Of a stretch of DNA of 64,000 nucleotides, positions 6,701 to 48,141 are shown piece after piece; the stretch's first letter is position 1; every line of letters begins with the position of its first letter. The position numbers were made by a program, and so were the translations under genes. The DNA comes from Apostichopus japonicus (lineage: Eukaryota; Echinodermata; Holothuroidea; Aspidochirotida; Stichopodidae). The notes under the pieces are model-generated. The model worked only from the letters and a program-made list of their open reading frames with translations, was not told where the DNA came from and did no database searches. The DNA is taken from contig NC_092568.1 of assembly GCF_037975245.1 (NCBI RefSeq), positions 6,360,501-6,424,500 of the forward strand. Reading direction: 5' to 3'.

Positions 6701-9700
6701 CTGCCACTGTACTACTGTAACCAGCACTGCTACTGTAACCAGCACTGCCACTGTACCTCTGTAACCTGAACTGCCACTCTACCACTGTAACCTGCACTAT
6801 CACTATACCACTGTAACCTGCACTGCCACTGTACTACTGTAACCATGCAAATAGAGCAGAAAAGGCATTTAACCAGTGTTGCAGATTAAAGTTGACCATC
6901 CAAATGTTAGAAGACCTTTGAAAAGGATTTGTATCATTCTGAACACCTTTAAACTCTACTGCAGGATATCATCATAAATACATTTTCAATCTTGCGTTGT
7001 CAAATTAAACACACACCATGAAATCAGACATAATCCAGAATTAAACACCCTTATTCTCAGATAGTAAGTCATTGAGGACCTTTATTTGCTTTAATAACAA
7101 CTTGATTAAAGCAGCATTTTGCGTCCTTTTCTATGATATTTCTCAATCTCACTGACTCCATATGCCATAATGACATACATAACTAGCTTATCTATTTAAA
7201 TCTTACTTCAAATGGTGGCATAAAAGTTGAAAAATTTGTAACTTTCAACTTTGTTTTTCTCCAAGATATTTTCCGTTGGGATCCCAATTAACCTCGCCCA
7301 TAATATGAATATTTAAACACTACGAACATCATTGACCAATTCGTAATCCAACACCAAGCTTGATTTGTGTACAGCCTATATGGCAGTTGTACCAGGGAGT
7401 TCCATAACAACTCCCTGGTTGTGCCAACGCAAAGTCTTGAATCTATTTTTAACAACGGCTCATAACTAAACCTGCATCTCTGATTGGTTGAATTCAAACT
7501 AGTGGGTTTGGGGTACTGTATGCGATTAATTTTAAATGTGGAATTTTGTCGTGGATACTTTTCTCATTCTCTGCAAATATCCTTAATTACTCGCCAATTA
7601 ACGATGTTGGCAGGGAAAAACTTGGCTGATATCTTAATTTGCTGTTTTGTGATTGATATATCTGAAAACTCGATGGACATGTCAAAAAAATAGAAAACGG
7701 CGACCAAACGCAAAATGCTGCTTTAAAATGTCCCTCCACAAACAACAGGGCTCTTTCAATCAATTAGTATGGACATTGACATATGAAATGTGAGATGACC
7801 ATTTTTTGGCCCCATTTACTGTGGAAAGAAGCTACAAACATGACTTCCTTACTGTCTACAATAGGTTACTATAGTAACCATTAACAAGTTGAATATCAGA
7901 CGAAAGACCTACATTTAAAATGTTTATTATAACTTTACTTAGCAATCCCCAGACTTTGCATGACCACAGATATTCCACATTCCAGTTGTGTCATATAGAA
8001 ACATATAAATTGTCCATGCACTTTTAAGGAATTTACTTCATGAACTGCCATTTACAATTTACAGTATTTGTGAAAATTTATAAGAGTTTTGTATGACATT
8101 GATGGACAATGTAGTTTTGTTAAGTACAAAAGACACACACATAATCTATCCAGATATCAGGATCTCTTCTAAATAGGCTTAAATATCGGAAATAATGGGA
8201 AAAGATTTAAATGTTTGCCATGAAATGATTGGAGTATAAATAAGGAAACACTACATCATAAAGGATATGTGGCATATGACAGCTTTCCTGATTACTCTGA
8301 AAATAAGGAAACTGTGGGCTAACCCGTGAGAATCTGGACTCCAGGTTAAGAGACCAAAAATAGCAATTTTAGAAATTAGGCCAAGAGCTGTCTGACAGAA
8401 CTTTGCTTAAAGCTACTGTAGATTAAATGAACTGACTAATAAAGTGAATCGTGGGTTTCCCTCTTGATGTGGATCACTTGTAACTACAATATGGTTTGAT
8501 AAATGGCATGTCAGCACAAACTGAACTAGCTAAGTACTTCAAATTTATGCTGATGTAACAAAAACTGAAATTCTGAAAGTTGCAATCATTCTAAAACAAG
8601 GGTACATTACGGTCTGACAGCTGTCTGAGAGTTGCTTAAAGTCAGATTAAATGAACTGACTAATAGTGTGGGTTTTCCTCTTGATGTGGATCACTTGTAA
8701 CTACAAGATGGTTTGATACATGGCATGTCAGCACAAACCTGAACTTACAACTAGGTAAAGTTCAAATTTATGCTGATGTAACAAACACTGAAATTCTGAA
8801 AGTTGCATTCATTATACACAAGGGTGTAGCCATTACATATCATTACATGTAAAACAACCAAATGATTCAGCATTAACAAGGATTAATAGTTTGTTAATAT
8901 TTTGGATAGCAAACACTGTACTTAAGTACTTTACTTCTATTCATGCATGAACCTCTCGTGCTCTCAAAATAAAATGGGTTCTTCTATTTCTTCACTGTTT
9001 AGCATTCTGTTATCCCATCCCCTTCCCTCCCCCACTTTATATGACACACTGTTACCCACTGTTCTACTCCCACGCAATAGATCTCTAATACATTTCGCTT
9101 TTCAGTGTGGAGGATACCACTGTGTATGTTATGTACATAAATACTTTATATTCTAAAGGTGCTACAGCTTTTAAGGTGCAGTTGACCTGTTAAGGTCATA
9201 AGAACCAAGTCCAGGGACTAAAATGAGAAGAACCTTGAGTTTTCTCTCAACTGAAGGCTGAATGTTATCAAAACATCCTCTAGTTTACACAAGTCATGGA
9301 ATACTTTTAATACTGCTGTAGTAAATGAGAATTCCAGCCTGACCTCTTTGCCACCATTATGCTTCATGTGAATCTCAAGTTGTAATATTGCAGAGTAGAA
9401 ATCCCATCAAGAATGTAGGAAGTAGTCTCAATAAACTCAAGCAACACACACACACATCACAACAACACTACAATTAAGGAAATCAAAGTACTCAAAGAGA
9501 TGTGGCAAAGGGAACTTGTAATCTAACTTGCATCAAAACAAATGACTGAACTCAATGTAGAGCTGTACAAGTTTACAGTTAAATAATTCATGTGTCCTCA
9601 ATTATGTAAATCATGCCTAGAGGAAACTCATTCATGACAAGTGAGCGTTTTAACAAACATTTGAGAGCTAATGAAATTAAGGGGAACGTATCTCAACTGC

Positions 9701-12700
9701 TGTAATTTTGGAGAGTGGACCGCATGATTATCATGAACTGTGGATTTGTTTCACGTACATAATATGCAGAAATTTGGGCCTTAAAGCATTGTGGTATTTG
9801 CATTGTACAAAGTTATGTACAAACCAATTCTCTATGATATCTTCGTTTTATCATCAGCTACAGCCTTAGGAGGCTCTTGTGAATAGTATTTTGTTAGGAT
9901 TGTGTGATTGTGTTGTTGATAGTATTTTGTGAAGCGTTTTGTGAAACGCTTCGATACTTTTAGTGATTTAGCGCTATATAAATGAGTATTCATTATTTAT
10001 TTATTGTGATTGTTACGGTTGTTGATAGTATTTTGTTAGGAGATTGTGAATGTTCCATTAGTAATTACAGCTGCATTTAGTCCAGTTTGAGAGGCATCCA
10101 GTGCTGGACTGTTCCATTAGTAATTACTGCTGCATTTAGTCCAGTTTGAGAGGCATCCATTGCTGGACTGTTCCTTTAGTCCTTACTGCTGCATATAGTC
10201 CAGTGTGAGAGGCAGCGAATGCTGGACTGTTCCATTAGTAATTACTGCTGCATTTAGTCCAGTTTGAGAGGCATCCATTGCTGGACTGTTCCTTTAGTCC
10301 TTACTGCTGCATGAATCAATCATGTTCACTTAAAAGTTACATAAAAGATAATATCATTGTGTTGAGTGATGGAGCTGGGACTCCATTTAGGGCCTCCACC
10401 TCCAGAGGTACTGACTTTTAAATTTTATGGAGTCACCAAGCCGAGCATTCATGTAATGTAATAGTATTATTAGTATGATCCAATAAGAGAAAGTAGATCC
10501 CATATGAGCTTAACTGAAGAGTCAGTACCTTATAATGTGTTTAAACTTAAAGTTTGTACATCATATAACATTCTTGCTAAACTAGTGGACAGTTACTGTA
10601 TAAAGAGAAAGCTGTGACTTTGATTTCTATACTCTAAGACTGTTCAAACTTCATGGCAGTGTCAGCAGCAACCATCCACATAATGAGACATACAACATAT
10701 GATTTGCAAAATAGACCCTTTGTTACACACTATTTGATTCATGGACAATTAACCATTCGCATGTGTGAACTATATCAATGGAAATCAACCAAAGTTTTCA
10801 AGAGTTTGATAATCTTTGTATCTCAGTGTTCACCAAGGTACTGATGTGTGATGAATAGGAATTAACACAGCCTTACTCATTGGTAAGAAACAATGAATGA
10901 TAAATGTTTACACTAGACCTGGTAGCTATGATGCACTGGATCCTACTTGTTTGAGTAAGGACCAATCAGATCTTATCAGCCACACAGTATCTTGGGACTA
11001 TCACATTACTATTTACAGTACAGTGCTACTACTGTTGCCTATTTGCTGGTTGCTTAGTGGTTGATAACTGTAAACAAAGGTTATTGTAGTCCTTGAAACG
11101 GTCAACCTCACTGTTTATTATGCATAGATCTATGAACCTAGAAGGAAAGCAAAGGCTACTACTGCACAGTGTTGAATGATTGGCAACATGATAAGTAAGA
11201 ATTCGGCCCAATTACCTCATGTATCTCAAATTGGCAGCAAATGTTTGATATAAAATAAATGCAAATTTTACAGACTAAATCCAGCTACTAAAGTCATTCA
11301 ACACAAATTGCATGATCAGTGATCCTCCTCACGGTGACCATTATGCAAATACCCTCCTCACAGTGACCGTCATGGATATATACCCTCCTCACAGGGACCA
11401 TCATACACATAGCCTCCTCACAGGGACCATCATGGAATTACCTCTTTAAAGTGACCACCATGCACATAGCCTCAGATAGGACCATCATGCACATAGCCTC
11501 AAGACAGGACCATCATGCACATACCATCAAGACAGGACCATCCTGCACATAGCCTCAAGACAGGACCATCCTGCACATAGCCTCAAGACAGGACCATCAT
11601 GCACATAGCCTCAAGACAGGACCATCATGAACATACCATCAAGACAGGACCATCCTGCACATAGCCTCAAGACAGGACCATCACACACGTAGCCTCCTCA
11701 CAGTGACCATCATGGAATAACCTCTTTAAAGTGACCATCATGCACATAGCCTCAAGACAGGACCAACATGAACATGTACCATCAAGACAGGACCATCCTG
11801 CACATAGGGCTCAAGAGAGGACCATCCTGCACATAGCCTCAAGACAGGACCATCCTGCACATAGCCTCAAGACAGGACCATCCTGCACATAGGGCTCAAG
11901 ACAGAACCATCCTGCACATAGCCTCAAGACAGGACCATCCTGCACATAGCCTCAAGACAGGACCATCCTGCACATAGGGCTCAAGACATGACCATCCTGC
12001 ACATAGCCTCAAGACAGGACCATGCTGCACATAGCCTCAAGACAGGACCATCCTGCACATAGGACTCAAGACAGGACCATCCTGCACATAGCCTCAAGAC
12101 AGGACCATCCTGCACATAGCCTCAATACAGGACCATCCTGCACATAGCCTCAAGACAGGACCATCCTGCACATAGCCTCAAGACAATATCCTCATGCTTA
12201 TATGCAGGGCTGATATTAAGAATGTTAGCTGTCTTTCCCTGCAAGTAGACTACCACACACTTCAAAGGCTAACCTGTACTGCATTGCCGCTAATTACGTC
12301 ATCTCTATATCCTAAAGGCAATTACTATTTCCTAGATCTTTCAGCAAATTATAGATTATCCTTCATCATGAACCTCAACTGATACTCTTTCTACTTTCCA
12401 CTACCTGTCAATTCTTGATGTCTGATGACCATACTGCAATGTGCTATCTCCATCTAGTCCCTTTAACTAGAATAACAGTCACTCAGATACCAGAACCCCA
12501 GTGAACAGTGAAGTTCAGTTACCCCGCACAACATTCATTAACGGATTATAATCACAGCTGGAAGTTCCATCTTATATTCACTACTTACTGAGAAGATAGC
12601 TCTATACTTACAACTTCACCGTACAGATTGACATGAAAAATGCACATAACAAGAGCTATACAAACCAGGTGAAATTGTATGCAGTAATTCAATACACATC

Positions 12701-15700
12701 CTCTGAGCTATTAAGGTCACTCAAAGATTAATAAAGGAGTCCCCTGGTGGGTGGAATATATGCACTGGGAATCCTTAATTATAGTTCTTATTATTTTTAA
12801 TTTCAATTATTATTATGATGGAAGAAGCATGACTATGTGTGTTTATAATCGTAGATATGATAGAGCAGTAGTACCCATTACAGATCAAACACACATTTTG
12901 TACACAGGACCACAATCTTATCCCCTCAGTCAAGGCTCACCTGAGTCGGAGGAATGCATCATCAGAGCTGACAGAAGACCAACATGGGCAATACAAACTT
13001 ACTCATGGAGTAGCTGCACAGTGAAGGTGACAATTTACAAATATTTAACATTCCGATTTCTTTACACCTACTTGATTCTACCTAGATTACATAGCTTACT
13101 TGTAGCTTATTACATGCAGGTAATTAAGGACTACAATAACTACAGCTTAACCACACAGCTTACTAAGGATATCTAGGTAATTGAAAATAATATTTAGAGA
13201 ATGTTAACAAAACATGGGCATTAATGCTATTTTAGTATTTGCAGATCATTATGTTACTAGCTAGCTGTTAATTAGCACATCAGAACAATTAGTTAATAGT
13301 CAACGTACCTGAGTAAGTAGAGAGCTCTATCTACATCATTTAGTTTCTCATCTACGGTCAACCGTTCAATTTCCTCTGCAGTCTGAAAAGCAAAGAAATA
13401 AATAAGCCCTGACATTTACAATCTCTGAATGGCCGTCCTGGATGAGAAGTTGCGTCTCAGCAAGAGCTCTAGCAACCGGGCTGATGAGCAGTGTGACTTT
13501 GTAGTAACTGTCCTAGAAAGAGTACAGCTGTTGAAAGTATTGTGCTCTCTACCAACATGAGATAATCAGCTGCCTCCTGACAGCAACAGACAATTTACAA
13601 CTGATTCTCTTTCAAGGAGCATGTGTTGTTGATGAGGATTATAAATCATTATTACTGATGACATTCAGAGAGTCATGCATGAGGATATACCACAAGTAGA
13701 GGATGACAATACTAGTTATTATTACAACATAAACTGATGATACATGGTTACTCCTGATGAGGATATACCACAAGTAGAGGATGACAATACTAGTTATTAT
13801 TACAACATAAACTGATGATACATGGTTACTCCTGATGAGGAAACACCACAAGTAGAGGATGACAATACTAGTTATTATTACAACATAAACTGATGATACA
13901 TGGTTACTCCTGATGAGGAAACACCACAAGTAGAGGATGACAATACTAGTTATTATTACAACATAAACTGATGATACATTGTTACTCCTGATGAGGATAT
14001 ACCACAAGTAGAGGATGACAATACTAGTTATTATTACAACATAAACTGATGATACATGGTTACTCCTGATGAGGAAACACCACAAGTAGAGGATGACAAT
14101 ACTAGTTATTATTACAACATAAACTGATGATACATGGTTACTCCTGATGAGGATATACCACAAGTAGAGGATGACAATACTAGTTATTATTACAACATAA
14201 ACTGATGACACATGATTACTCCTGATGAGGATATACCACGAGTAGAGGATGACAATACTAGTTATTATTACAACATAAACTGATGATACATGGTTACTCC
14301 TGATGAGGATATACCACAAGTAGAGGATGACAATACTAGTTATTATTACAACATAAACTGATGATACATGGTTACTCCTGATGAGGATATACCACAAGTA
14401 GAGGATGACAATACTAGTTATTATTACAACATAAACTGATGATACATGGTTACTCCTGATGAGGATACACCACAAGTAGAGGATGACAATACTAGTTATT
14501 ATTACAACATAAACTGATGATACATGGTTACTCCTGATGAATCATGCACAGGCTCTCTATACTCTTATGTGGATTCATAGACAGTCTAGTTCAGTGTGTC
14601 AACATCAAAAACAGAGCTTTAATCAGCATTATTCTTTAAATCGATTCTATATTTATCAAGGACGGATAAACCACTTAGTTATTGGAGTTTTGGATGATGT
14701 TTATGTCTTGCTTCTGTTAAATATATTGTAAAAGATATCCTTCATAATGGTTAACCATAAATTAGTGTGTAATGTATACATGTTCATATTGTCCAAACCA
14801 AACATCTATCGTAATCTTTAACTCATCTGGAATATGAAGACTTTATCCCACACACTTCTGAATATTGATAGGAAGGTACTAAAGATAAATTAACTGCACA
14901 TGTTCCATAACTTTATAGCTCTGATGAAAGAATATATCCATCACCAACATTGAAAAATTCCTAAGCAATGTAAAACAAATGTATTAAAAAGGTTCTACTT
15001 TAGGCCATAGCATTTATTAAATGTTTAATATATACAAACTAATCAAATGAATCTAGTTGGTGCAGTTTAAACAAGTGTATTGCATTTGCACTGCATACAA
15101 TTGGTAAACATTGGGCTACCGCCAATCGTAATACAAAGTAGTAGTGTTGCCACTTTTAAATGTTTTAAAACCGCTAAACGAATGAATGTACCATTTAACA
15201 GAAATCGCGTTTCTGTCAAACAGCCACTCGGTCCTGTCACCTAGCATTTTAGCAATTTGTGGCGAACAAAATCCTCTGTAATATAATTCTACACATAAAT
15301 TTGCCATTTAAAGAAGGCTAATTGACTGAAGTACCAAATGGCCACACTGGGTTATAATGGGGGGAAAAGGCCGCACAAACATTTCTGTTTCATGACATAG
15401 TAGTACACTAGACTGTACTGTGTACTGTACATGTGCTATATAAATTAAAGCAAACACCAAGTGGGACTGTATCGGCAGTTAACATATATACTTCAATGCT
15501 GAGTACATGTGCAATATTTAAGCATTTATAGCCTATTGTGACGTTTTGTCGACAGTTAACATATACTGTGTACTGTGTACATGTGCAATACTTTAAGCCA
15601 AAAAGCCTATAGTGAGGATGTATCCGCAGTTAACATTTATACTTCAATGCTGAAATTCTTTAAGAATTGTGTTTGTACGATCGAAAAACTTCCTCAGGGA

Positions 15701-26077: not shown

Positions 26078-29000
26078 ATGGTAAGTGGAGAAATGTTTGT
26101 CTTGTAAATGAGTAGCCTTACGTTAATTAATGTTATGAGAAATAACAGAGAAAGTGTGGTCCGATCATGATACGCATTGTTACTTGTTAGTTAGACTACA
26201 GACATTACTGTAGCCTAGTGTAGGTCTTAAGTTAGACATCTTTCAAAGGATAAGCGCCTGCTGTCCTACCTTCTGTAGGCCTATATATATGCGCTAGTAA
26301 TAGTATTAACATCAGCAAGTAACAAAAACAAAGGAAGTACTTTACATGTTACGTTACTCAGGTGCACATGTTGGTGTCAATAGCCAGTATGCAAGGACAT
26401 TGAGTATGGAGTCTAGTCAAGGCTTCATAATTGACGCACCCCCGTAATTGACGCACCTTCAATTATTACTAGCAATGGTACAGCAGGCCACCTAAACTTC
26501 TTGCAGCCAAGCAGAATTACATATTTCATGAGTTTGAATCCATTTCAGCTATTTGCTGACCAAATTGTGGTATTTTTTAAGCTTTTAACACCCTCCCCCA
26601 GTTTTGCACGTTTTTTGGGCATTTGGAAATCTTACATCCTAAAAATAACCAACATTACCTCAATGTGATAACACTACTCTCTGGGACCTGACCTGTCTGA
26701 GCTTAGAGGCTCAGAGCATAGCAAACAGCATCTTAAGTCAATGGATGTATACTAAGGCCTACGCTACAGTTGGCTTATCGACAAATGTTTCAATTTAAGG
26801 GTATAAAAGAACTTGACACGTCAGACATTTTGTGGTCAAATTCTGCTCAATTGTACGGTGCATAAGCACAGAACCTTAAATATATTGAGATTATAACATT
26901 TCTGAGGAACTAAACATATGAAAAACACATACAGTTGAGTGATTTGGATTTTTCCTTGATAGATATCGTTGATCAAATCCTTAAGTGCGTCAATTATGAG
27001 CCCACCATGCTACCAGCGTGGTAATCCTCATTGAAAGAGGTAGATGGGATTGAGGCTATACAACGAAGAGCAAATAAATTAATAATAGGCCTATTTGGTT
27101 TCATGGATACCTAATATGAAGAACGGTTAAAACTACCAAGCTTAGCAAATAGAACATTGAGAGGAGACATGATTTTTGTATGCAACTGTATAAGAACTGA
27201 TCGGAATGGATTTTCCTACTCCTTGGTCTATAGCCTCTTTACCCCTATACAACACAGTGTGTAGTCCTCTTGTATGGTTTGAAACAGGTATGATGAACAA
27301 GTGTTTTAAACAATTCAAAACATGCACATGCACACTCCAAGAACAACAAAAACATGGCAACTAGTGTCTATAAAGAATATTAGTGCAGGTAGTACATTTA
27401 CAATAAGATGGTAATCAGTTAATGTGTACCACCATTCCAATGTTTCAATATCCTTTCCTTGCCAATAATTGTCACTCCCTACAAAGGACTGGTTATTCAG
27501 GGATTGTCACCAACTAATGGCTGGATAGCTCAAATGGTAAAGCACAACAGTACTTGGTATTGGTTTGAATCCCATTCTAACAAATAATTTCTTGTTCTTT
27601 TACATGTTTGTTAAAGTTCTGTATGTTTCTTCTCAGTGAAGCTAATTGGTTTATTTGATTTTCAGTTCCAGTTTGGAACTTTTGGTTTTCTGATAGATAT
27701 AGTGGGAGTTTAAATCAGAACTGCCTGAGTAATGTTATGGCCAATCACGTCCTAGCATCAAGCTATGAACAAGTTACTCACAACAGACTACCTCAGAGAT
27801 CACAAAGGTTACCAAGGAATAGGACTGGAGCATTCGTTGAATTGGTAAGAATATTTTAGTTCGCACAGGCTATCTTTGTATCATAAGAATATCACATTGA
27901 ACAAATGATTGCAACAAGTTAGACCAGTAGAAGTATCACATTTGTATGGAATGTTGAGCATTATGGAAGCACCCCACCAATTCTTTGCTCTGCATGTTAA
28001 CCATTCATAATTTATCTCACATAAAAGTGAAAGTTAACTGATTACTTTATTTTTACTTTGACACAGTACAGTACTATAAAAAGATTTAATGTTACTCTAA
28101 GCACTGTTATAAGTGATTCTAAATTAGATTTAAATTTGGTTTAAGAAGTTCATTATCTATGAGCAACATGTATCGTTTGATTTGTTGTTCTTTGCTAACC
28201 ATGATCATTTTATTGTGCTTTTTAAACTTCAGCATCATGGTCCTCAAAAAGTTCCTCACCGTTCAATACCTCCATTAGCGAGACCAAGGGGAGTCCCAGC
28301 AACAAGTAGTAGCAGCAGTTATTCAAAGTCAACTGGACAAGTGAGTTTTGAGGTTGGCTTTGCCATTGGTGCAGTAATGAGGTTGGCTTTGCCATGGGTG
28401 CAGTGAGTGACAAGTTTGGCTTTAGCATGGGTGCGGTAATGAGAGAAGCTTTGCCATGGGTGCAGTAATGAGGTTAGATTTGCCATGGGTGCAGTAATGA
28501 GGTTGGTTTTGCAATGGGTGCAGCATTGAGGTTGGCTTTGCCAAGGGTGCAGTGAGTGAAGAGGTTGGCATTGGTGCATTTATGAGGCTGGTTTTGTCAT
28601 GGGTGCAGCATTGAGGCTGGTTTTGCCATGGGTGCAGTAATGATGTGTCGTCTTTTATGTATCAATGAACTATGTATTGCTGCTGTGTTCTGCTAGCTCC
28701 CACACCAGGTGTAAGCTAGATGGTTTCTCTATTTTACTCCTAAGAAGCATTCTGCACATCTTCTCATCTAAGTAAACCCTTCAAATTGATAACATCAAGG
28801 ACAAGATAATTATTGAGAAGTAGTTAACTAATGGAAGAGCTATTTATACATCCACCCAGCTTCACCTATATAATTGTAGATATTGTATTTGAAAAGCTGC
28901 AATTAATTTCATTTTTACATGTTTTGTTGTTAAGAAGAATGTTGTATTTTGGTTTGTTACTTTCAAGTGATTACTGTTGCATTTGTTTTGTTCTTTAATA

Positions 29001-32000
29001 TCTGCAGAAATCTAATGATGACAAACTTCTCATTCTCTCCTCCTCTACTCTGGTCTCTCTTTACTGTAAACTTGCTCCTCTTCCTCCTGTCTGCCTCCCT
29101 CTTTCTCCCGCTCTTTCTCTTCGTGTTTCTAATGTCTATCCTAAACAGAAGCAAGTTGTTCAGAACATCCGAGCCAGACAAGAGTGGAAAGGAGGCTTCT
29201 ATCCTCAGCCTGTAAAGGTAAGTCAGTTAACACGTTCTGAAGTATGCAGAAGTTATGCTTTGTGGAAGACCTTACCATTGTGCTGGCACTTTTGTACATT
29301 TTTAAAATGTAAATCGTGTATATTACAACATGCCTGTCGGTGTCCTTAATTAATTGTTTGCCTTTCCTTTGATTTAAGTAAGTAGTGTCAATTTTCTTAT
29401 GTTTGGGTGTTTATATTGATTTTTGAAGACCAAACCCTGATACCTTGAGGGGATTCTCTCATTGTCTCTTATCTATTTGCTTCATAACTTACCATCTGCA
29501 GTAACTTGTTACTTCTTATTAACACGTTAGATCATAATTTCTTCCTGCAATCAAAATCTGGTTGATTTCTATATTGAAATCATTTGCTCCTACACAGAAA
29601 AGCCGAAGTAAACAACTCCATGAGAAAATAGATCACAGACCATCTCCACATTTATTGCACGGACTTCCTGATTACAGAGATTTAACAAGGTATGTAATTA
29701 CTAGCATTGTTGTCTGCATAAACCTGTGTAGGTTTACTTCACACTGTAGTATTTTGAGTTTTGTAGTGCAAATTTGTTCCCTAGATTCCAGCCTGATTAA
29801 AGATTTTTACTTTGTTGTAGACGATCAGCAAGAAATTTTGTTGCAGCTTCGAATAATGGAGTTACTCATCTGGAGGATCTAAGGTCGGAATCAATGAATT
29901 CATTCAGTGTACAGTCTACAACAGAGACTGTGTATGATGATATGAGTAGTATAGCTGGACTGGAAGAAGTCTACAAGAAAATTTTAAAGGTAAGTAAGTA
30001 AATAGAGGAACTCAAAAATCTCTAAAGAGTGGATGCAACCCATGCCAAGGGGTATATTTGATACGGGCATGAGATTTCTACAGCCACTATACAACCCATG
30101 CCAAGGGGTTTATTTTATAAGGGAATAAGATTTGTACAGCCAATATACAATCCATGCCAAGGGGTTTATTTTAAAAGGGCATGAGGTGTTTACAGCCAAT
30201 ATACAACATTATATGCTTTTCTTGCTCCACTCTACTATTATACTGTCCCATCCACCAACCATCACAAGAAATGTCTCACATCGGGGTCACTACAGCCCAC
30301 CTCCATGTTTCTCCGAATCTACCATTCTTAAAGTAGTATAACACTTTGTTACATATTGCTTTAATGCATACAGACAGTGACATGATGCAACAGTTCATAT
30401 CATGGATTACTCATGTTTGATTTACAGGAAGAAGCTTTGACTCAGCTATCAAACAAAGACAGAAGAGGCAGACGAAAGTCAGAGAATAAACAATCTCCTT
30501 TATTGATAAGGTTAGCATCTACTTAATGTCTATGGTATAAGCATAGCATACTGTACTTGTTATAAGGTGACCATTTAAGTAATATGCAAGATATAAGCAT
30601 ATTAGGACTTAATACTTAACTGTTGATAAGGTTAGCATCTAGTTAATGTCTATGGTATAAGCATAACATACTGTACATGTTATAAGGTGACCATTTAAGT
30701 AATATGCAAGATATAAGCATATTAGGACTTAATACTTTACTGTTGATAAGGTTAGCATCTAGTTAATGTCTATGGTGTAAGCATAGCATACTGTACATGT
30801 TATATGGTGACCATTTAAGTAATATGCAAGATATAAGCATATTAGGACTTAATAGTTAACTGTTGATAAGGTTAGCATCTAGTTAATGTCTATGGTATAA
30901 GCATAACATACTGTACATGTTATAAGGTGACCATTTAAGTAATATGCAAGATATAAGCATATTAGGACTTAATACTTAACTGTTGATAAGGTTAGCATCT
31001 AGTTAATGTCTATGGTATAAGCATCGCATACTGTACATGTTATAAGGTGACCATTTAAGTAATATGCAAGATATAAGCATATTTAGGACTTAATACTTAA
31101 CTGTTGATAAGGTAAGCATCTAGTTAATGTCTATGGTATAAGCAAAGCATACTGTACATGTTATAAGGTGACCATTTAAGTAATATGCAAGATATAAGCA
31201 TATTAGGACTTAATACTTTACTGTTGATAAGGTTAGCATCTACTTAATGTCTATGGTATAAGCAAAGCATACTGTACATGTTATAAGGTGACCATTTAAG
31301 TAATATGCAAGATATAAGCATATTAGGACTTAATACTTTACTGTTGATAAGGTTAGCATCTAGTTAATGTCTATGGTATAAGCATAGCATACTGTACATG
31401 TTATATGGTGAACATCTAAGTAATATGCAAGATATAAGCATATTAGGACTTAATACTTAACTGTTGATAAGGTTAGCATCTAGTTAATGTCTATGGTATA
31501 AGCATAGCATACTGTACATGTTATAAGGTGACCATTTAAGTAATATGCAAGATATAAGCATATTAGGACTTAATACTTTACTGTTGATAAGGTTAGCATC
31601 TAGTTAATGTCTATGGTATAAGCATAGCATACTGTACATGTTATATGGTGAACATCTAAGTAATATGAAAAGTATAAGCTAAGCATATTAGGACTTAATA
31701 CCTTACTGTTGATAAGGTTAGCATCTAGTTAATGTCTATGGTATAAGCATAGCATACTGTACAGGTTATAAGATGAACATCTAAGTAATATGAAAAGTAT
31801 CTCGGCATATTTGGACTCAATACCTTACTGTTGATAAGGTTAGCATCTAGTTAATGTGTATGGTGTAAGAAAATCATGCAGTACAGGTTATAAGATGGAC
31901 ATCTAAGTCATATGCAAAGTAGAAGCTAAGCATATTAGGACTTCATACTTTACTGTTGATAAGGTTAGCAGATCTAGTTAATGTGTATGGTGTAAGAAAA

Positions 32001-35000
32001 TCATGCATTAGTACCTTACTTTTAATATGCTGATCACTTAGGTAATACTTGTATCAGACCTTACTATTGGTAAGATGAATACAGTGTATATGCACGGTAT
32101 AAGCATATCATCTACTAAATATGCATGGTATAAACATATCATGTTTGTAATGGGAATATCTACTAAATATGCATGGTAAGCATATCGTACTTTACTATTG
32201 ATAAGGAGGGTATGAAGTTAACATGCATTGCATAAGTACAAAAGTGAAGAAATTTTTTGTGCATTGTTGGTAGGATGATCATCTAATCTATATGCACAAA
32301 GAGGGTTTATATACTTGCATGTGCTATTGTAGTAGTGTATGTTACAAATCAACAAGCATATTGATGAGACAGCAAGACATAAAACAGGCACAGATTTTAA
32401 ACACTGATTGAATTTAATGTTAGAAGATGCTTCCATTTCATAGAGTGGTTGATAGTCCTGTTTGGTTACGATGACGAAAGCCCAGTAATCTTTGCTATCG
32501 TGCTGGCGTGTGTGCATGTAGGTGTGTGTGCGTTTGTTTTGCTATCTGACCGAGGACTTGAACAAAAGAATTTCAGGTCCTCGGTTGTGATTTCTAAAGA
32601 ATCACCACGTCCTCGGAAGAATTCTATTGTATGGGGTTTTGTTAAAGTTAGGGTACGTGGATTTGAACAATGGAAAATACAATGGGGTCCTCGGTCTGAA
32701 TGAAACACAAACATGTGTGTGTGTGTGTTTGTGATGGCCAGCTTGTAAACAACCACAAGTTTAATCAATGTCATACTTGGTAGATGCCCCATGATTGAAG
32801 TTGGTGGCGGTCAAAGGAGGTCGACAGGTGCCACAGTTTGAAAACCTTTTAAACTCTAAAATTAAAGCTACAATAAATTTGTCAATTCTCCAATGGTATC
32901 ATTTTCTTTTCGTGAACATAGTTTGGTCAAATTCAGTTCAGTTAAGTCTTGTGAAGGGGCTCTATAAGTCTTTAACTGAACATGCATACAATCATCCAGG
33001 AAAATTCAAGGAAATTGATATGTAGTATATATTTCTTAAAGCGCACTCAAGTGGCTATTATCCAGTTTCACCCTCTGATCTTCAAGGGGTCAACAGGTTA
33101 TCACAAATGGTCTTCAATTGGTAATTTGTTGTGTGATTTATACCAGAACATTCTCTGGTAGGCTCTCAATCTATGATAGCAAATCTCGAAAGGATTGGTA
33201 TTAGGAATTGGAGTCAAAATTCTATACTCTAAAATCCTTACCAGTGAACAAAATGGTTGATGCTTTGTCAACATGATAACTGATTCCTGACACCTTTCTT
33301 TATATGTTGCAGCATAAGCCAATAGATTATCCTCTTCATTTTGGTGTGCACATTTTCATGTATATTATTATGTATGGCTTACCACACTATGAATATGTTT
33401 AGGCATCGTAACCACTAACCGCTTTCATTTTCTTGTTTTTATTGTTTTTCTGCGGTTGTTAGGAGTTTTCGCAATCCTCAGAACCCTCATCCAGTGGTGC
33501 AGTACTCAGACATCCGAGATTCAAACAGTCCCAACAAGAATCATTACGTCTCTCGTCCTCCAGTGCCAGCTCCTTTTTTCTACAATAGTCGAACACTTCC
33601 AAAAGCTGCAGACCATGGCGGAAGTAGAGTTCATTTATCTCGATTATCAGGTCAGTAGAGCATGTTTGCTGATATCATCTTGATAGTAGGTTTCAGTTTA
33701 TTCTTCAATTAAGGCTCTAATCAATATACATTACCAGTCTTTAAACATGGAGTCTAAAATACTGTTCATGTTTTATGAATAAAGTCATGAGAATTAGTGA
33801 TAAACCAGACTCATTCATGTCTGCAAGGGACCATACGTAAGAGACCACATAACTGATGTGTCTGTCTTCTCTTATACCTTTCCCTTTAACCTGATACTTT
33901 ATCTTTGGAAACACTTTGTTATCTTGAAGTTCAATGAGTAACATTGAAAGGTTATATGTGAATGGTTATGGAGTTTACATAGTCAAATCCATAGTAGTTT
34001 ACTATGCAATGTAAAATGGGATATTATCAACCACAGTAATCCAATCTTTCAGGTACAAGGAGCTCAGATCACATATTGGCTGCACCAGGAGTTGGCATCC
34101 TCACAAAGTCTGCTCTAGGGTTTACAAGACAGCATAGCCCCCCTCCTGGCATAGAGGGTCAGCCACCTCCTGCCCTTACATCAAGAGGCAAGTTAACAGA
34201 TTCAGATGAACGGCTTGGCATGATGGTAAGATGATTTGATTTCTTTGGCTACAACAAGAGTAAGGGCATGTAATATCTCCGTCCTTACTTAGAGGGTTTC
34301 TATTTGATTATAGGTCTGTTAGTAACTTTCATGTTCGTTGTTGTTTTTGCTTGTAGGGAAGATTTCGAGTACCAAGTACTACACCTGCTACATCCACTCC
34401 AGATATACAGAAAGCTCTTGAAGATGCAGGAGCCAATGATGACCCTGGTGAGATGAATATTCAAAGTATTGTTGTATTTATTAATTACAATATTGCTATA
34501 TGCAATGTTGGTGTACTTGCAATGTTCACACAACTCCATGTAATTAGTGTAAGGATACCACATGATAGTAATTTAGTAGGGTGTAAATATACCTCCATTT
34601 ATGTATGAGTGTAAGCATACCACGTGGTAATACTATATATAGAGGTGTGAGTAGTATACCATGCAATTTGAGTATACCTCCTTGTTATGTATGAGTGTAA
34701 GAATACCACATGGTAATAATATATGTAGAGGTGTGAGTAGTATACCATGCAGTGAGTATACCTTCCTGTTATGTATGAGTGTAAGAATACCACATGGTAA
34801 TAATATATGTAGAGGTGTGAGTAGTATACCATGTAGTGAGTATACCTTCCTGTTATGTATGAGTGTAAGCATACCACATGGTAATAATATATGTAGAGGT
34901 GTGAGTAGTATACCATGCAGTATGAGTATACCTTCCTGTTATGTATGAGTGTAAGCATACCACATAGTAATTATATATGTAGAGGTGTGATTAGTACACC

Positions 35001-38000
35001 ATGATTTACCACATGTTGATAAACCCCCTCTGTAATGTAGGGGTGTTTATCTCCATGTACTACATGATTCTGATAGAGTTTCTCTTATTTCTGTACAGTC
35101 ATACTACCTGAGTATACAGATGATGAACACACAGACAATAACTCAGTTGTTCAATCAACTGAGTGCATTGATGATGCTCAAAGCTCTCCATGTGTACCAT
35201 CTGGGATTATGCTTTCTCTGGAGACTGATGAAGGAGTCAGTAAAGTTATTGATCTTGAGGAGGAAGAGGAGAGAAATAAACGAGATGGTGAAAAGAAATG
35301 ACCTTTGTTATTATAACTTATTAAAACAAACATCTCAATGTATGTTTGTTCTTATTCTTTTGTTTTTGTGTCTGTTTCCTGTTTAGTGAGAATTCATTGG
35401 AGATATTTCATTCTTTGTAGAATATCTTGATAAAACAAAGTATATTATTCTGAATTACATAAGTTATCTTAGTAACGAATATGACACCGACCTTGATAAC
35501 TATGTTAATGCTTTTGAAGAAACACTTCAAAAAGTTATGGATGTTCATGCACCTAAGAAAACATTTGTTAAGAAGCTAAACTCGACATCACCTTGGTTCA
35601 ATGATGACATTCGTGCTGCCCGTAAAGTACGCCGCCAGTTGGAACGTAAATAGAGAGACAATGGCAAACTTGAAATACACAGACAGGAATACTGCAAACA
35701 ACATGACATTGTTGCTGCTCTTATCAAGCAAGCTAAAATTCAGTATTACTCCAATGAAGTTACAAATTGCTATGGTGACCAAAAGAGGCTATTTGGATTT
35801 ATTGATAAACTTTTACACAAATCGAATGAACCTGTACTCCCGTCAGCTGTCTCTGATCAATCCTTGGCCGGCCGTTTCTCACAGTTTTTTGTGGAAAAAA
35901 TTGAGAAGATCAGGAATGCATTTACCCCTGTTTCAGACCATCAGGAACATTGTATAGTTACCTCAACTAAATTGCTCTCTGTTTTCCACCCTGCCACTGA
36001 ACATGAGGTCAAGAAGATTATCATGAAATCAGCTCCGAAATCTTGTCAACTTGATCCTGTCCCAACATCTGTTATTAAGCAGTGTATCGATGTATTTGTC
36101 CCTTATATCACTAACATTGTCAACACGTCCCTCTCTTCAGGTTGTTTCCCAGAAAGTCAGAAGATTGCATACGTTCGTCCACTCTTGAAAAAGGCTGGTT
36201 TGGACAGGGAGATCTTGAAAAATTATCGCCCTGTCTCTAACCTGAAATTCCTTGGAAAAACTATTGAACGTGTTGTTTCATCTAGGATAAATGATCACAT
36301 TTCTGACAACAATTTATCTGATGTTTTCCAGTCTGCGTACAAACAAAACCATGGTACTGAGACTGCTCTTATTAGGGTCAACAACGATATATTGACTGCA
36401 TTAGACAATGGAATGATCACTGCCCTTGTTCTTCTCGACTTGAGTGCTGCTTTTGATACTGTCGATCATGACTTGTTAATATCTAGACTCCGGAATCATC
36501 TTGGCCTACGAGATACAGCACTCAACTGGTGTAAGTCTTATCTATCACAGAGGCCACAACATATCTGCATCGGTAATGCCATCTCCGATGCTGTTGTTCT
36601 CGACTACTCTGTTCCACAAGGCTCGGTTTTGGGTCCTCAACTCTTCACTATCTATACTTATCCAGTTCGAGATATTATCCTCAAGTATAATCTCAAGTAT
36701 CATGTTTATGCTGATGACACTCAGATCTACTTCTCATTCAAATCCTGTCAACATGATGCTGACTCATCACTCAGAATTATGGAAAATTGTATACAAGAAA
36801 TTCGGTGTTGGATGCAGCAAAACTTCCTTAAACTGAATGATGATAAAACTGAATTTGTGCTTTTCGGATCTTGGCAACTACTATCAAAGATCAGTCTCCC
36901 TTTTATACGAATTGGGGACTCACAAATTGTTCCTGTTTCTCAAGCTAGAAGTCTAGGAGTGGTCTTTGATTCTTTCATGACGATGAAACCACATATCTCT
37001 AATGTTATCCGTTCATCCTCATTACACATTCGGAACATTGGTAGGATTCGAAAGTACTTATATCGTGTTGCTGCTGAACAAATCGTTCATTCATTTATCA
37101 CTTCTCGTCTGGATAATGGAAATGCCTTACTCTTTGGTTTACCACAATCTCAGCTCTCCCGACTTCAACGTCTTCAAAATACTGCAGCTAGAGTTGTAAC
37201 TTTGTCAAGAAAATCGTCTTATATAACACCTATACTACGAGATCTTCACTGGCTACCTATTTCTTATAGGATTATCTACAAAATTCTACTCATTGTTTTT
37301 AAATCACTTAATAACATGGCTCCTATGTATGTTTCAGAATTACTCCAATTGTACTCTCCATCACGGAATCTTCGTTCAAGCAGCACGCTTAACCTCCAGG
37401 AACACAGGTCTAAACATTTGTGGGGTGACAGGTCTTTCAGGGTTGCCGCCCCACGCCTTTGGAACACTTTACCATATGAACTGAAGTCATGCACCAGTAT
37501 TGCAGCTTTCAAGAAACACCTTAAAACTCACCTTATGCGTGAAGCTTTCCAGTAGTTCTATTTGACTTTTTTCCATGTTGCGCCTTGAGCACCCTGTAGG
37601 GTGGATATGTGCGCATTATAAATCTCTGTTATTATTATTATTACATTTGCAGTGGTCAATAAATTTATACAATTTTTGAATCTGTGTACTTTTAGTATAT
37701 CAGAATATCTTGGAAGTAACAATATTTACAAAAATTCTATACTTAATGATTTGCAAAGATGAGAGAGTTTTAACATAATGTTTGTTTGTTTGTTTGTTGC
37801 AGTCATTGAGTATCATGCAGTGCAGAGAGCATTACAGAGCACCACTGAAGATGAAATAACTGAAGAACAAATCGTTGATGAATGTAAGGAGGTAAGGCAA
37901 CAGCAACAGGATTTACTGAGATGTAACAGAAATCAATTGAACAGAACTCTTAAGGTCTTGAGAACAATTGATATCTAGCTTCATTCCTCCTTGAACAGCA

Positions 38001-39060: not shown

Positions 39061-39759
39061 TTGCTTATGCAGTTAGAATTACATAACTATGAATAAAGTT
39101 TTCTATCTATGAAAGCAACTATGAATATGACGTCACTATGAATACAATTTTAGATAAATATTTCCGTCTATTTTAGGTTTAATGCTCATTATTCTGTATT
39201 TAAAAAAAAAGTCTTCAGCTCTTTTATGCATGGTTCTTTTCTCATCATGGAGTTTGCTTGGTTTGGATATGATTTTAATTTTCAAATATCCAGTAAAACT
39301 AATGGATCAATATTTGCTTCTGTGAGAGAAACGAGGGAAAGAAGAGAGGGATATGTAATTATGGCAAACAATTAAAATAGATGGATATGAATTTATTGGG
39401 TTTAGTTAATTGTTAATTCATTGTGAATTCAATTTAAAATATTGAAGGAATGTCTATTGTCTGAGGCCACCTTTTGCACCAATATGTACATTTTATAGAC
39501 TTACACTCCATCAGACACACATGTAGTGTGAATTATCTCATCATGGTGATTTCGCTGAACTGATTTTGTTTTATTCTTATCCTATTTAGTCATTCATCTA
39601 CAGATGAAATAATGTTTCTACAACAAGTTGCTTTTGATGAAATTCTGAATACAATTATCATTGACAGCTAAGCAACCATTCCAGATGTATCACATTTCAA
39701 GGATAAATAAAAAACAAGACAATAATAGGAAAGTAATTCATTCATCTACAATGATGACA

Positions 39760-40710
39760 TAACAGATAAGCTTCTATGATCAAACCTCTTAGAGTAAGGG
39801 ATGGTTAAGCCAGTCAACTTAATAGCCACCTGAATATACCTCTTAGACAGATCACCTTCTATGATCCACCTCCTAGAGTAAGGGATGGTCAAGCCAGTCA
39901 ACTTAATAGCCACCCGAATATACCTCTTAGACTGATCACCTTCTATGATCCAATTCCTAGAGTAAGGGATGGTTAAGCCAGTCAACTTAATAACCACCTG
40001 AATATACCTCTTAGACAGATCACCTTCTATGATCCACCTCTGAGAGTAAGGGATGGTCAAGCCAGTCAACTTAATAGCCACCCGAATATACCTCTTAGAC
40101 TGATCACCTTCTATGATCCAATTCCTAGAGTAAGGGATGGTTAAGCCAGTCAACTTAATAACCACCTGAATATACCTCTTAGACAGATCACCTTCTATGA
40201 TCCACCTCTGAGAGTAAGGGATGGTCAAGCCAGTCAACTTAATAACCACCTGAATATACCTTTTAGACAGATCACCTTCTATGATCCACCTCCTAGAGTA
40301 AGGGATGGTCAAGCCAGTCAACTTAATAGCCACCTGAATATACCTCTTAGACAGATCACCTTCTATGATCCACCTCCTAGAGTAAGGGATGGTCAAGCCA
40401 GTCAGCTTAATAGCCACCTGAATATACCTCTTAGACAGATCACCTTCTATGATCCACCTCCTAGAGTAAGGGATGGTCAAGCCAGTCAACTTAATAACCA
40501 CCTGAATATACCTCTTAGACAGATCACCTTCTATGATCCACCTCTGAGAGTAAGGGATGGTTAAGCCAGTCAACTTAATAACCACCTGAATATACCTCTT
40601 AGACTGATCACCTTCTATGATCCACCTCTGAGAGTAAGGGATGGTTAAGCCAGTCAACTTAATAACCACCCGAATTTACCTCTTAGACAGATCACCTTCT
40701 ATGATCCACT
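39760..40710. repeat. 84-bp minisatellite, 11 copies
   Basis: Uniform 84-bp units containing AGAGTAAGGGATGGTTAAGC and CTTAGACAGATCACCTTCTA. The minus strand is open for 307 codons as a 28-residue repeat because 84 is divisible by three. Differences among copies change residues (Q/R/N, V/A, L/Q) rather than third bases, which argues against selection for a protein. Confidence 0.92.
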
Positions 40711-45200: not shown

Positions 45201-48141
45201 AATTCCTGATCTCTAGACATACAATGGCTTTTGAGAGGTTGGCTTTGTTGCTTTGGGTGAACAGATATTAATTGTATGATTTCAACCAACAAAACAAACA
45301 ACATTTTCTTTCACGCGGCAGTTATTGGACACTGTGTTTTTTATGTAATGTTCTAAGCTTATTAGCACCTATCACGTATAATCACGTATCATGGGAATTG
45401 TGGTCTTTTATGATAGTGCAAGTCATACTAGTTTGAACACAGTACAGGAATGTAGAAAAGGCATTGGCTATACAACCAATCCTACCATTCGACCTTGATG
45501 ATCACTGGTAATTTAAGCAAACCATCAATTATCACTGGATTTGAGTTCTGATCTTATGAAAGTGTATACTCATAGGACAGGAATTTTGATGCTGCATTTT
45601 TAACCATATACGCAATGTGCAATATGTGCCCACAATGGTCATCAAGTCACTAGTTTAGCCTAATTTGTAGGCCAGTTGAGAAAAAATGCCTGACTGTTCG
45701 TACTGACTGCATGGAGCACCAGAAAGATGAAACATTGACACTGATAGCATTCAGTACCTCGGCACTAGATACTGAAGTTAAACTAGATACTGGAGTAAAA
45801 CACTAGATACTGGAGTAAAACACTAGATATATACTGGAGTAAAACACTAGATATTGGAGTAAAACACTAGATACTGGAGTAAAACACTAGATACCCTGTT
45901 GGCCAGTTCACAAGGGATGTATTTATCAGTCCTGAGTGAATGACAGCCAGCTTGTCCCTGTGGAATGTATACTTATTGGTTCTTTTAATGGTGTTAGTGC
46001 CCACACTTTGTAGTATTTAACATTTCGGGTAATGGCTACTGAATAGGTTGCATCAAGTACAACAACAGTTACACAAATAGCTGATATATGCACTGATTGG
46101 TAGTATTCAAAGAGTTTCATACCATTATGTGCACAGAGCAATGGATGTATTCTTTGTACTAGTATCACTAACCCATGGAACAGAGACTACATATAAAGTA
46201 TTAGTATTACTAACCCATGGAACATAGATTACATTTAAGTTTTGTACAAGAGGTTTCATTGATCACTGTCATGTTATTTAAGCCAGTGACTATATTTTTC
46301 CACAGTAAATCTGTTCATATGAACAGATTTATATAGCACTATAGCTATATAGCACTATATATGACACAGAAGAGTGACTTTAAATAGTTTAATTGTTTAA
46401 TTAGTGACAGTCTGGAAGGTTCTCTACCAAGCTCTTTTTGCAGATACTGCAAAAGATAAATCCTGTTGTAATTGAGGTTTCCTGTTCAGGAGTATAATGT
46501 TACCAGAGATAGATATCCATTGTTGTCCTACTTCTGCAGCATTACCTAATAAATGGCTATGTTGAGTGACTAACAGCCATCTTTGATCTGAATGAAAGAA
46601 AGGTTTTAGACCAATAAATACAAACATATCATGTATGAAAATGGATGAATAAATGTCATTAATGAATATAGTGTTTGCTTTCTTGGCATGGGGTATGATC
46701 TTAGTCTTCAACTTTATAGTTAGTTATTGTTCAAGTAATAGCACATTTTGACCAATTTCCAAGTAATACAGAAATAATGTAGAATGGTTTTGGAGTTGAA
46801 TATGTTGTGTTACCTGTCTTGATCTGATATTTTTTTTTTACATGTGTCAACTACCTAACTATGAGACTGTTTTGGTTCTTACTTTTATTAGATTCGTATG
46901 TTGGCTGATACCTGCTGTGACTTCACAAAGGTAAGAAGTGGCTGTAGAACTAACCTAGGCAAATGGTTTCCCTGTGCATAGGATGTAAAGATGTATGGAA
47001 GCTGTTGTGGCAACTTTTGTTTTAAAGAAATCATAGTTATATTTGCTAAAATGTCACCTGTTGTTAATGAGGACTGTACCATTCTAATCAAAGCTTGTTT
47101 GTACATCTTTCTTCTGATACCTGTGTCGACATTCCTGGAACTATTACTACTTGTGGTTCTTGCAATTAAATAAGTTTGTCATTTACAAAATCTTCAATAT
47201 CCCAGTGTATAACTCATGTGGGAGGTGCTTAAACTTGATATTGTAATTTATAAATTATGCCTGGAGCAGATACAGCAGTGGTTAAAATCATACACATGAA
47301 TATGTTTTACCACTCTGGGAGTTAGTTAATTAAATGTATTTAACCCCCCCCCCCTCCCCACAACACACTTATCAACTGATGTGCTACAGTATCATTTAAA
47401 AACCTTTATTTCAGGCTGTTGACCTTGAGCTGGATGCGACACCAATCCTTGGGAGTGTGCGATCTAAGAGGTGAGCATGATTCCTTAGTATTAGTTACCG
47501 TCTCTACAACTTACAGTCTAGTTAGGGCATTAGAAATTGAGAGGTGCATATTGTTCCACAGTAAGGTACTAGTTACCTTCTTGGCAACTTACTGTCTAAG
47601 TTAGGACATTAGAATTTGAGAGGTAAGTATAATTCCACTGTAAGGTACACATTACCATCTCTGCAACTTACAGTCTAGTTAGGGCATTAGAATTTGAGAG
47701 GTAAATATGGTTCAACAGTAAGGTACTAGTTACCTTCTCTGCAACTCACAGGCTAGTTAGGGCATTAGAATTTGAGAGGTACGTATTGTTCCACAGTAAG
47801 GTAATAGTTACCTTCTTGGCAACATACAGGGTAGTTGAGGTATTAGAATCAGCACTACTGGTTCTGTAGCCTCAAATTTCTCTCACAATTTGATGCAGTT
47901 GGAACCAGTATACAAAGTATGCTCTAGAATTGTCAGGATGTGATATCAAAATGAATCAATTGTAGATTTCAGTCAGTTTGTTTGGCAGTGTGTTTTAGTT
48001 GTTATGTTTATGATTTATCTCTTTGTTACATTCAGGTATTCTATGGTAGTAGAAGATGGTGTTGTAACAAAGCTAAACGTCGAACCAGATGGGACAGGTC
48101 TTACCTGCAGCCTCTCAACAGAGCTTTTGAAACAGCTGTAA
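42294..48141 (+). CDS. PRDX5: Peroxiredoxin-5 (atypical 2-Cys), complete
   Basis: Thiol peroxidase reducing hydrogen peroxide, alkyl hydroperoxides and peroxynitrite, recycled by thioredoxin. Exons: 42294-42392, 44008-44142, 44776-44907, 46892-46930, 47415-47470 and 48036-48141 (TAA). All junctions are AG/GT and in phase, giving 188 residues. The first 29 residues are Arg/Ser/Phe-rich without acids (CSAFYRCSLLKNF...RPFSTT), a mitochondrial presequence. MPIK at residues 30-33 then matches the start of the mature human enzyme, so an internal start could give a short form. The peroxidatic Cys is C76 in TPGC, the resolving Cys is C178 in GTGLTCSL, C101 matches the third human Cys, and R154 matches the catalytic Arg. 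Spacings agree with human within two residues. A CC pair (C130-C131) is unusual. The C-terminus is KQL, where the human enzyme ends SQL. Confidence 0.95.
42628..42770 (-). repeat. Partial second copy of the TA-flanked element
   Basis: Reverse-complement similarity to about 26870-27010. The two share GTGCGTCAATTATGAGCCC, TGAGGAACTA and TATGAAAAAC. TA at 42626-42627 marks the same terminus (GCATGGTGGGCTC). The far end is not found nearby. It lies in PRDX5 intron 1. Confidence 0.7.
45775..45895. repeat. 20-bp minisatellite
   Basis: Six copies of ACTAGATACTGGAGTAAAAC with small variants, in PRDX5 intron 3. Confidence 0.85.
46307..46330. other. Perfect 24-bp palindrome
   Basis: The 12-base arm AAATCTGTTCAT is followed directly by its exact reverse complement with no loop. 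Next to it lies a second near-palindromic AT-rich stretch (ATATAGCACTATAGCTATAT). It is located in PRDX5 intron 3 and could extrude a cruciform. Confidence 0.8.
47466..47860. repeat. 78-bp minisatellite that includes the PRDX5 exon 5 donor
   Basis: The first unit starts at the end of exon 5 (AAGAG|GTGAGCATGATTCC). Later units repeat the donor-like GAGAG|GT at 47544, 47623, 47701 and 47779. The 47623 copy reads GAGAG|GTAAGTATAATTCC, a closer match to the donor consensus than the true site. The last unit decays by about 47850. Confidence 0.88.

Follow-up and report, generated by a model that had tools for sequence, protein, structure and literature searches.

The host gene and the array at the end of exon 6

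The window (the whole stretch of DNA analysed, 64,000 nt) contains a plus-strand gene that we modelled as 12 exons, with all phases matched and GT-AG ends at 11 of 11 introns (Table 1). A Pfam search with the 552-aa model returned no match; an earlier, hand-joined piece of the gene had hit four Pfam families, all under the cut-off (best E 0.0022), and a PDB search gave three weak matches (best E 0.27). The gene model therefore rests on frames and splice sites rather than on homology, and two guessed identities, TADA3 and TBATA, were dropped. Intron 10 of this gene also holds a reverse transcriptase ORF of 633 aa (35654-37555; RVT_1, E 3.5e-32), which is probably a non-LTR element.

Two GT dinucleotides lie downstream of the exon 6 acceptor and ahead of the in-frame stop at 30524-30526, one at 30478 (AAA/GTCAGA; slashes mark the splice junction) and one at 30511 (AAG/GTTAGC), and use of either leaves phase 2. 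The GT at 30511 is stronger, by weight matrix (7.6 vs 5.0) as well as by predicted pairing with U1 (-5.6 vs -1.7 kcal/mol), and exon 6 most likely ends at 30510. Use of 30478 as the real donor is unlikely, although the lowest weight-matrix score among the 23 donors modelled in the window is 4.8.

A minisatellite begins at this junction. Tandem Repeats Finder (TRF), run on the window, reported positions 30503-31996 with a period of 120, 12.3 copies and 94% matches. The junction-spanning 14-mer TTGATAAGGTTAGC was found 13 times when up to two mismatches were allowed across the whole window (12 exact matches and one with a single change), each time inside the array, as compared with a mean of 0.57 and a maximum of 3 in 100 shuffles. 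The junction TTGATAAG/GTTAGC accordingly occurs 13 times, with the presumed real donor among them and the sixth occurrence reading AAG/GTAAGC; copy starts are spaced by 120, 120, 120, 120, 121, 120, 120, 120, 120, 125, 122 and 125 nt. The final 8 nt of exon 6 match the array copies exactly, which was the case for none of the 22 other exon ends and for none of 168 AG-terminated 10-mers taken from exons as controls, and no homology was detectable upstream of these 8 nt (shuffle p = 0.36).

A sequence-only reading of this DNA had described an exon end and donor copied twelve times between 30503 and 31990, about every 120 bp, with the array boundary inside the exon. The array is real and its spacing as described, and the boundary does fall 8 nt inside the exon, provided that the exon ends at 30510. 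The count is better put as the presumed real site plus 12 copies and, although the start agrees with TRF, the array extends to 31996, with decayed relatives further on.

Table 1. Positions, within the window, of the features discussed in the text.
Feature	Coordinates	Strand	Basis and remarks
Host gene model, 12 exons, 552 codons	27737..38320	+	Frame-consistent; no Pfam match
Host intron 2, 29-bp array starting at the donor	28341..28643	+	TRF; junction alignment
Exon 6, 83 nt, entered in phase 0 and left in phase 2	30428..30510	+	Gene model; predicted end; last 8 nt, TTGATAAG, part of the array
Minisatellite, 120-bp unit, 13 starts	30503..31996	+	TRF, profile and motif positions
Presumed real 5' splice site, AAG/GTTAGC	30511..30516	+	Stronger of two frame-compatible GTs
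Intron 6, 2952 nt	30511..33462	+	Gene model
Copy 6, TTGATAAG/GTAAGC, strongest array donor	31104..31117	+	U1 -9.5
Decayed unit relatives	31997..32297	+	nhmmer; donor-like sites at 32070 and 32176 (U1 -8.0 each)
Exon 7	33463..33650	+	Entry phase equals the phase left by the 30510 donor
Peroxiredoxin-5 intron 4, 78-bp array	47461..47849	+	TRF start 47488, moved to 47461 after alignment

The two edges of the array differ, the exon side being sharp and the far side decaying. Copies 1-9 are 95-99% identical to one another, and copies 10, 11 and 12 are 87-92%, 84-92% and 81-87% identical, respectively, to the others of copies 1-12. Beyond the array, nhmmer detected relatives up to 32239 (E 5e-6 and 2e-5) and, weakly (E 0.033), up to 32297. 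Each unit itself consists of two diverged halves, which agree at 32-38 of 54 positions in a comparison of 12 units, and AAG/GTGACC is present in the second half at seven places. AGGT occurs 22 times in the 1.5 kb of the array, whereas windows sampled in other regions average 4.8, with none above 16. In copies 10-12 (31584-31955) the longest stretch free of variation is 31 nt and includes the splice junction with the core TTGATAAGGTTAGC (permutation p = 0.009, in a test chosen after looking); with all 13 copies counted, the longest such stretch is only 14 nt. The 31-nt run could be due to constraint, conversion or chance.

A profile built from the 13 copies matched only the array locus at E values up to 10, so that a dispersed repeat family is rejected for the window, and the 84-bp array in intron 9 is unrelated by this test. 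A 19-mer search of public collections returned two genome contigs and two viral contigs with a single match each, which we take as chance. No known RNA family reached its gathering score anywhere in the window. RNA structure as the function of the array was rejected, as two units fold no better than their shuffles (z = -0.45; 57 of 200 shuffles equally good).

Candidate donors in intron 6

Candidate donors were scored by U1 pairing and by a leave-one-out weight matrix derived from the window's own donors (23 introns modelled). By U1 pairing, the presumed real donor of intron 6 is the second weakest among the 11 donors of the host gene model. By weight matrix, 13 GTs within the intron tie with or beat this donor, whereas none of the other 22 introns has more than two such sites; of the 23 introns, 15 have no GT that scores as high as the real donor and seven have one or two. 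These 13 rivals comprise eleven tying array copies, copy 6 and the site at 32176, and 11 of them are exact ties because any array that starts at a donor must yield ties. The contrast is less clean by U1 pairing, where intron 6 has 33 GTs equal to or better than its donor (11.2 per kb), host introns 2 and 10 each have 10 such sites (15.0 and 4.0 per kb) and the remaining 20 introns have 0-7. For scale, one of the 954 GTs in a 12.5-kb minus-strand intron rivals its donor by weight matrix, and seven do by U1.

Past 30510 the reading frame encodes LAST followed by a stop, which use of any later donor copy would add to the message, and the expectation in the sequence-only reading that a downstream donor would bring a quick stop was thus borne out. 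The sequence likewise supports the ladder of equal donors that it described, with one clearly stronger site; that site, AAG/GTAAGC in copy 6, had been placed near 31105, and its GT lies at 31112.

Other arrays at donor ends in the window

The 23 introns belong to four genes that we modelled in the window: the host gene, a peroxiredoxin-5 gene (PDB match, E 2e-64; the model leaves out the first exon), a seven-exon minus-strand AMPK beta gene (E 3e-78) and a minus-strand gene represented by three exons, which we take to resemble PPP4R4. A Pfam scan of the ORF of the third of these PPP4R4-like exons, the one scanned of the three, gave no match. The 12.5-kb intron of the same gene (844-13308) contains four minisatellites, none of them less than 1 kb from the donor.

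For every donor we took the exon-intron junction from -12 to +40 as a query and aligned it with all the introns, its own included. For three of the 23 donors, clear copies of the donor's own junction were found in an array of its own intron, with scores of 94 (host intron 6), 56 (host intron 2) and 44 (peroxiredoxin-5 intron 4). Each exceeded every other pairing of its junction or of its intron (36 or less; 32 or less for the intron 6 junction in other introns and for other junctions in intron 6), and in none of the three did any of 300 shuffled junctions, which preserve base composition only, reach the own-junction score. A fourth donor, of AMPK beta intron 6, was marginal (38 vs 35, shuffle p = 0.010), with a match that begins at intron position +4, and was left uncounted. 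A gapless version of the test was clear for the intron 6 array and placed the own intron above the others in two of four window sizes for host intron 2, three of four for peroxiredoxin-5 intron 4 and one of four for AMPK beta intron 6. At the opposite end, a similar test with a different query (the 3'-terminal 40 nt of each intron and no exon sequence) found no acceptor end copied in its own intron among the 21 of 23 introns covered.

After overlapping TRF rows were merged and six short ones omitted, the window holds 20 arrays, 16 inside the 23 introns and 4 outside; the omitted short row at 12775-12816 is also intronic. Three arrays start within 10 nt of a donor, as compared with 0.50 expected (Poisson P = 0.014; 16 arrays, 23 introns), in a post hoc test whose rule was set after looking, with the starting finding as one of the three and a peroxiredoxin-5 array start that had been moved. 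Two further arrays, at 39746-40675 (84-bp unit) and 13639-14541 (78-bp unit), have units that are multiples of three and are open on the minus strand for 309 and 300 codons, respectively.

In host intron 2, donor-like CA/GTGAGT copies lie at 28403 and 28552, and the exon-side match is equalled by 16 to 33 of 168 controls. The array units of peroxiredoxin-5 intron 4 resemble the junction GATCTAAGAG/GTGAGC, with copy GTs at 47544, 47623, 47701 and 47779; for copies 2, 3 and 4 the alignment with the junction reaches exon position -9, and for copy 1 the alignment window gave only its overlap with the query. Copy 2 (47623) reads GAG/GTAAGT, better than the real donor GAG/GTGAGC, and read-through into this intron meets an immediate stop. 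The exon-side match is modest here (among 168 controls 4 to 12 do equally well, and among 22 exon ends 1 to 2), and such evidence is decisive only for the intron 6 array. The peroxiredoxin-5 exon end encodes VRSKR, however, and VRSKRYS is identical in chain 2wfc, which we take to be the lugworm enzyme, with RLKRFS in 1h4o, presumably the human one. This conservation makes the exon the likely source of the repeat sequence there.

Possible origins of the array and comparison with known systems

The explanation that we favour, giving it an even chance, is that the array is a local minisatellite that arose when a stretch comprising the 3'-terminal 8 nt of exon 6 and the beginning of intron 6 was duplicated in tandem. 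Repeated unequal exchange would then have produced the ladder of donors. After each duplication the original donor would still lie closest to exon 6 and would be favoured by exon definition starting at the acceptor upstream, and this copy is probably the one preferred in use; the array would be tolerated for these reasons. A duplication over the acceptor, by contrast, would place a usable acceptor with its own tract upstream and spoil the message. If duplications are harmless at the donor and harmful at the acceptor, arrays at donor ends would be explicable without function. The effect on the gene would be mostly a longer intron with decoys, perhaps with a small leak into LAST-stop transcripts that are then destroyed.

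Such a neutral array explains nearly all the observations. In favour of local duplication are the boundary inside the exon, a unit without relatives elsewhere in the 64 kb, homogeneous copies near the exon with decay at the far end only, the own-intron score far above any other, the peroxiredoxin-5 copies that align back into a conserved exon end, the lack of copied acceptor ends among the 21 covered, and a window in which arrays are ordinary. As the unit occurs nowhere else in the window and the sister array in peroxiredoxin-5 abuts a conserved exon end, we infer that the direction was from exon to repeat, and the sequence-only proposal that the duplication was seeded across the junction is likely, if short of proof. 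Against local duplication stand the weaker, frame-compatible GT at 30478, which could be the real donor, the 31-nt invariant run in copies 10-12, which neutrality does not lead one to expect, the modest exon match in peroxiredoxin-5 and an exon side in intron 2 that shows nothing.

A more tentative extension is that this genome repeatedly grows minisatellites from 5' splice sites while duplications that cover acceptors are purged, which would endow many introns with ladders of equal donors; the pattern behind it, 3 of 23 introns, is a small sample noticed after the fact. If donor-anchored arrays do prove frequent and acceptor-anchored ones missing, this would be a footprint of selection on the order of splice sites, measurable from sequence. 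As a set of identical donors at fixed intervals, such an array also offers a natural test of whether position, exon definition or chance picks the 5' splice site when sequence cannot decide.

A length-dependent switch between productive and decaying transcripts had been suggested in the sequence-only reading. We consider it doubtful that the ladder acts as such a splice switch, in which copy number would set the use of downstream donors, the resulting early-stop transcripts would decay and array length would thereby tune expression. The weak presumed donor, its 13 rivals by weight matrix and the LAST-stop that every later donor would add all suit such a switch, and PMC4526556 reports that splicing in IFI6 uses two downstream units of its repeat as donors. 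However, the 5'-most copy retains its positional advantage, and the equal copies (11 of the 13 rivals) are what an array beginning at a donor would give in any case. Similarly doubtful is dual-specific or recursive use, whereby units running from GT to AG would be excised singly through AAG/GT with the junction rebuilt each time, leaving the mRNA unchanged. Every interval between copies is indeed a GT...AAG stretch of 120-125 nt, the pyrimidine content before the AAG (0.55-0.70) resembles that of 11 real acceptors (0.55-0.75), and PMC10809524 describes AGGT tandem-repeat arrays working both ways in human UBC, but the 23 modelled acceptors comprise 16 CAG, 7 TAG and no AAG.

Somewhat less probable again, the exon may have grown into a pre-existing array, an older donor having been lost and the first repeat copy having taken over. 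In favour of this, the array ends abruptly on its exon side, each unit seems to be an old duplication of a half-unit and the decayed copies also carry TTGATAAGG or TTGGTAAG, so that the motif may predate the exon 6 boundary; on the other hand, copies are absent upstream of exon 6 and elsewhere in the window, and the sister array in peroxiredoxin-5 adjoins a conserved exon end. Least probable is an exon end at 30477, with a wholly intronic array and an exon-end match that is an accident of annotation, since the GT at 30478, although it shares the phase and scores just over the lowest modelled donor, is well below 30511 by both measures.

Returning to local duplication across the donor, several known systems resemble the product it would leave. 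The IFI6 minisatellite lies at an exon-intron boundary and has a unit of about 12 bp. In human IFI6 (6-16, G1P3) it reportedly supplies multiple splice donor sites, a finding said to be that of Turri et al. in 1995. Given the predicted exon end at 30510, the array described here likewise reaches from exon into intron and carries a donor in every unit. Its unit is 120 bp, however, every later donor would bring a stop, and its later copies are candidate donors, whereas in IFI6 the downstream units are alternative donors. Dual-specific splice site arrays have been described in tandem repeats of UBC and VCX3A, and in UBC the tandem AGGT sites are used as donor or acceptor (Duan et al. 2024, PMC10809524). 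Here too AGGT recurs at the same place in successive units and the intervals run from GT to AG, but the UBC units are coding with sites used both ways, whereas this array is intronic, its AG is an AAG and its sites are candidates.

Tandem duplication over an intron-exon boundary is also a described route to a new intron (PMC4974935). Here, too, the duplication would cross such a boundary and copy splice signals, but it would have lengthened an existing intron at its donor end. More loosely related are a C. elegans minisatellite over-represented near alternative splicing regions (PMC4039745) and minisatellites in an intron of earthworm metallothionein genes (PMC12783039). Among the matches listed in a search of open-licence papers, none described donor-anchored minisatellites as a recurring class. 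Together, the IFI6 and UBC precedents and the literature on boundary duplications make a donor-copying repeat an already known kind of element.
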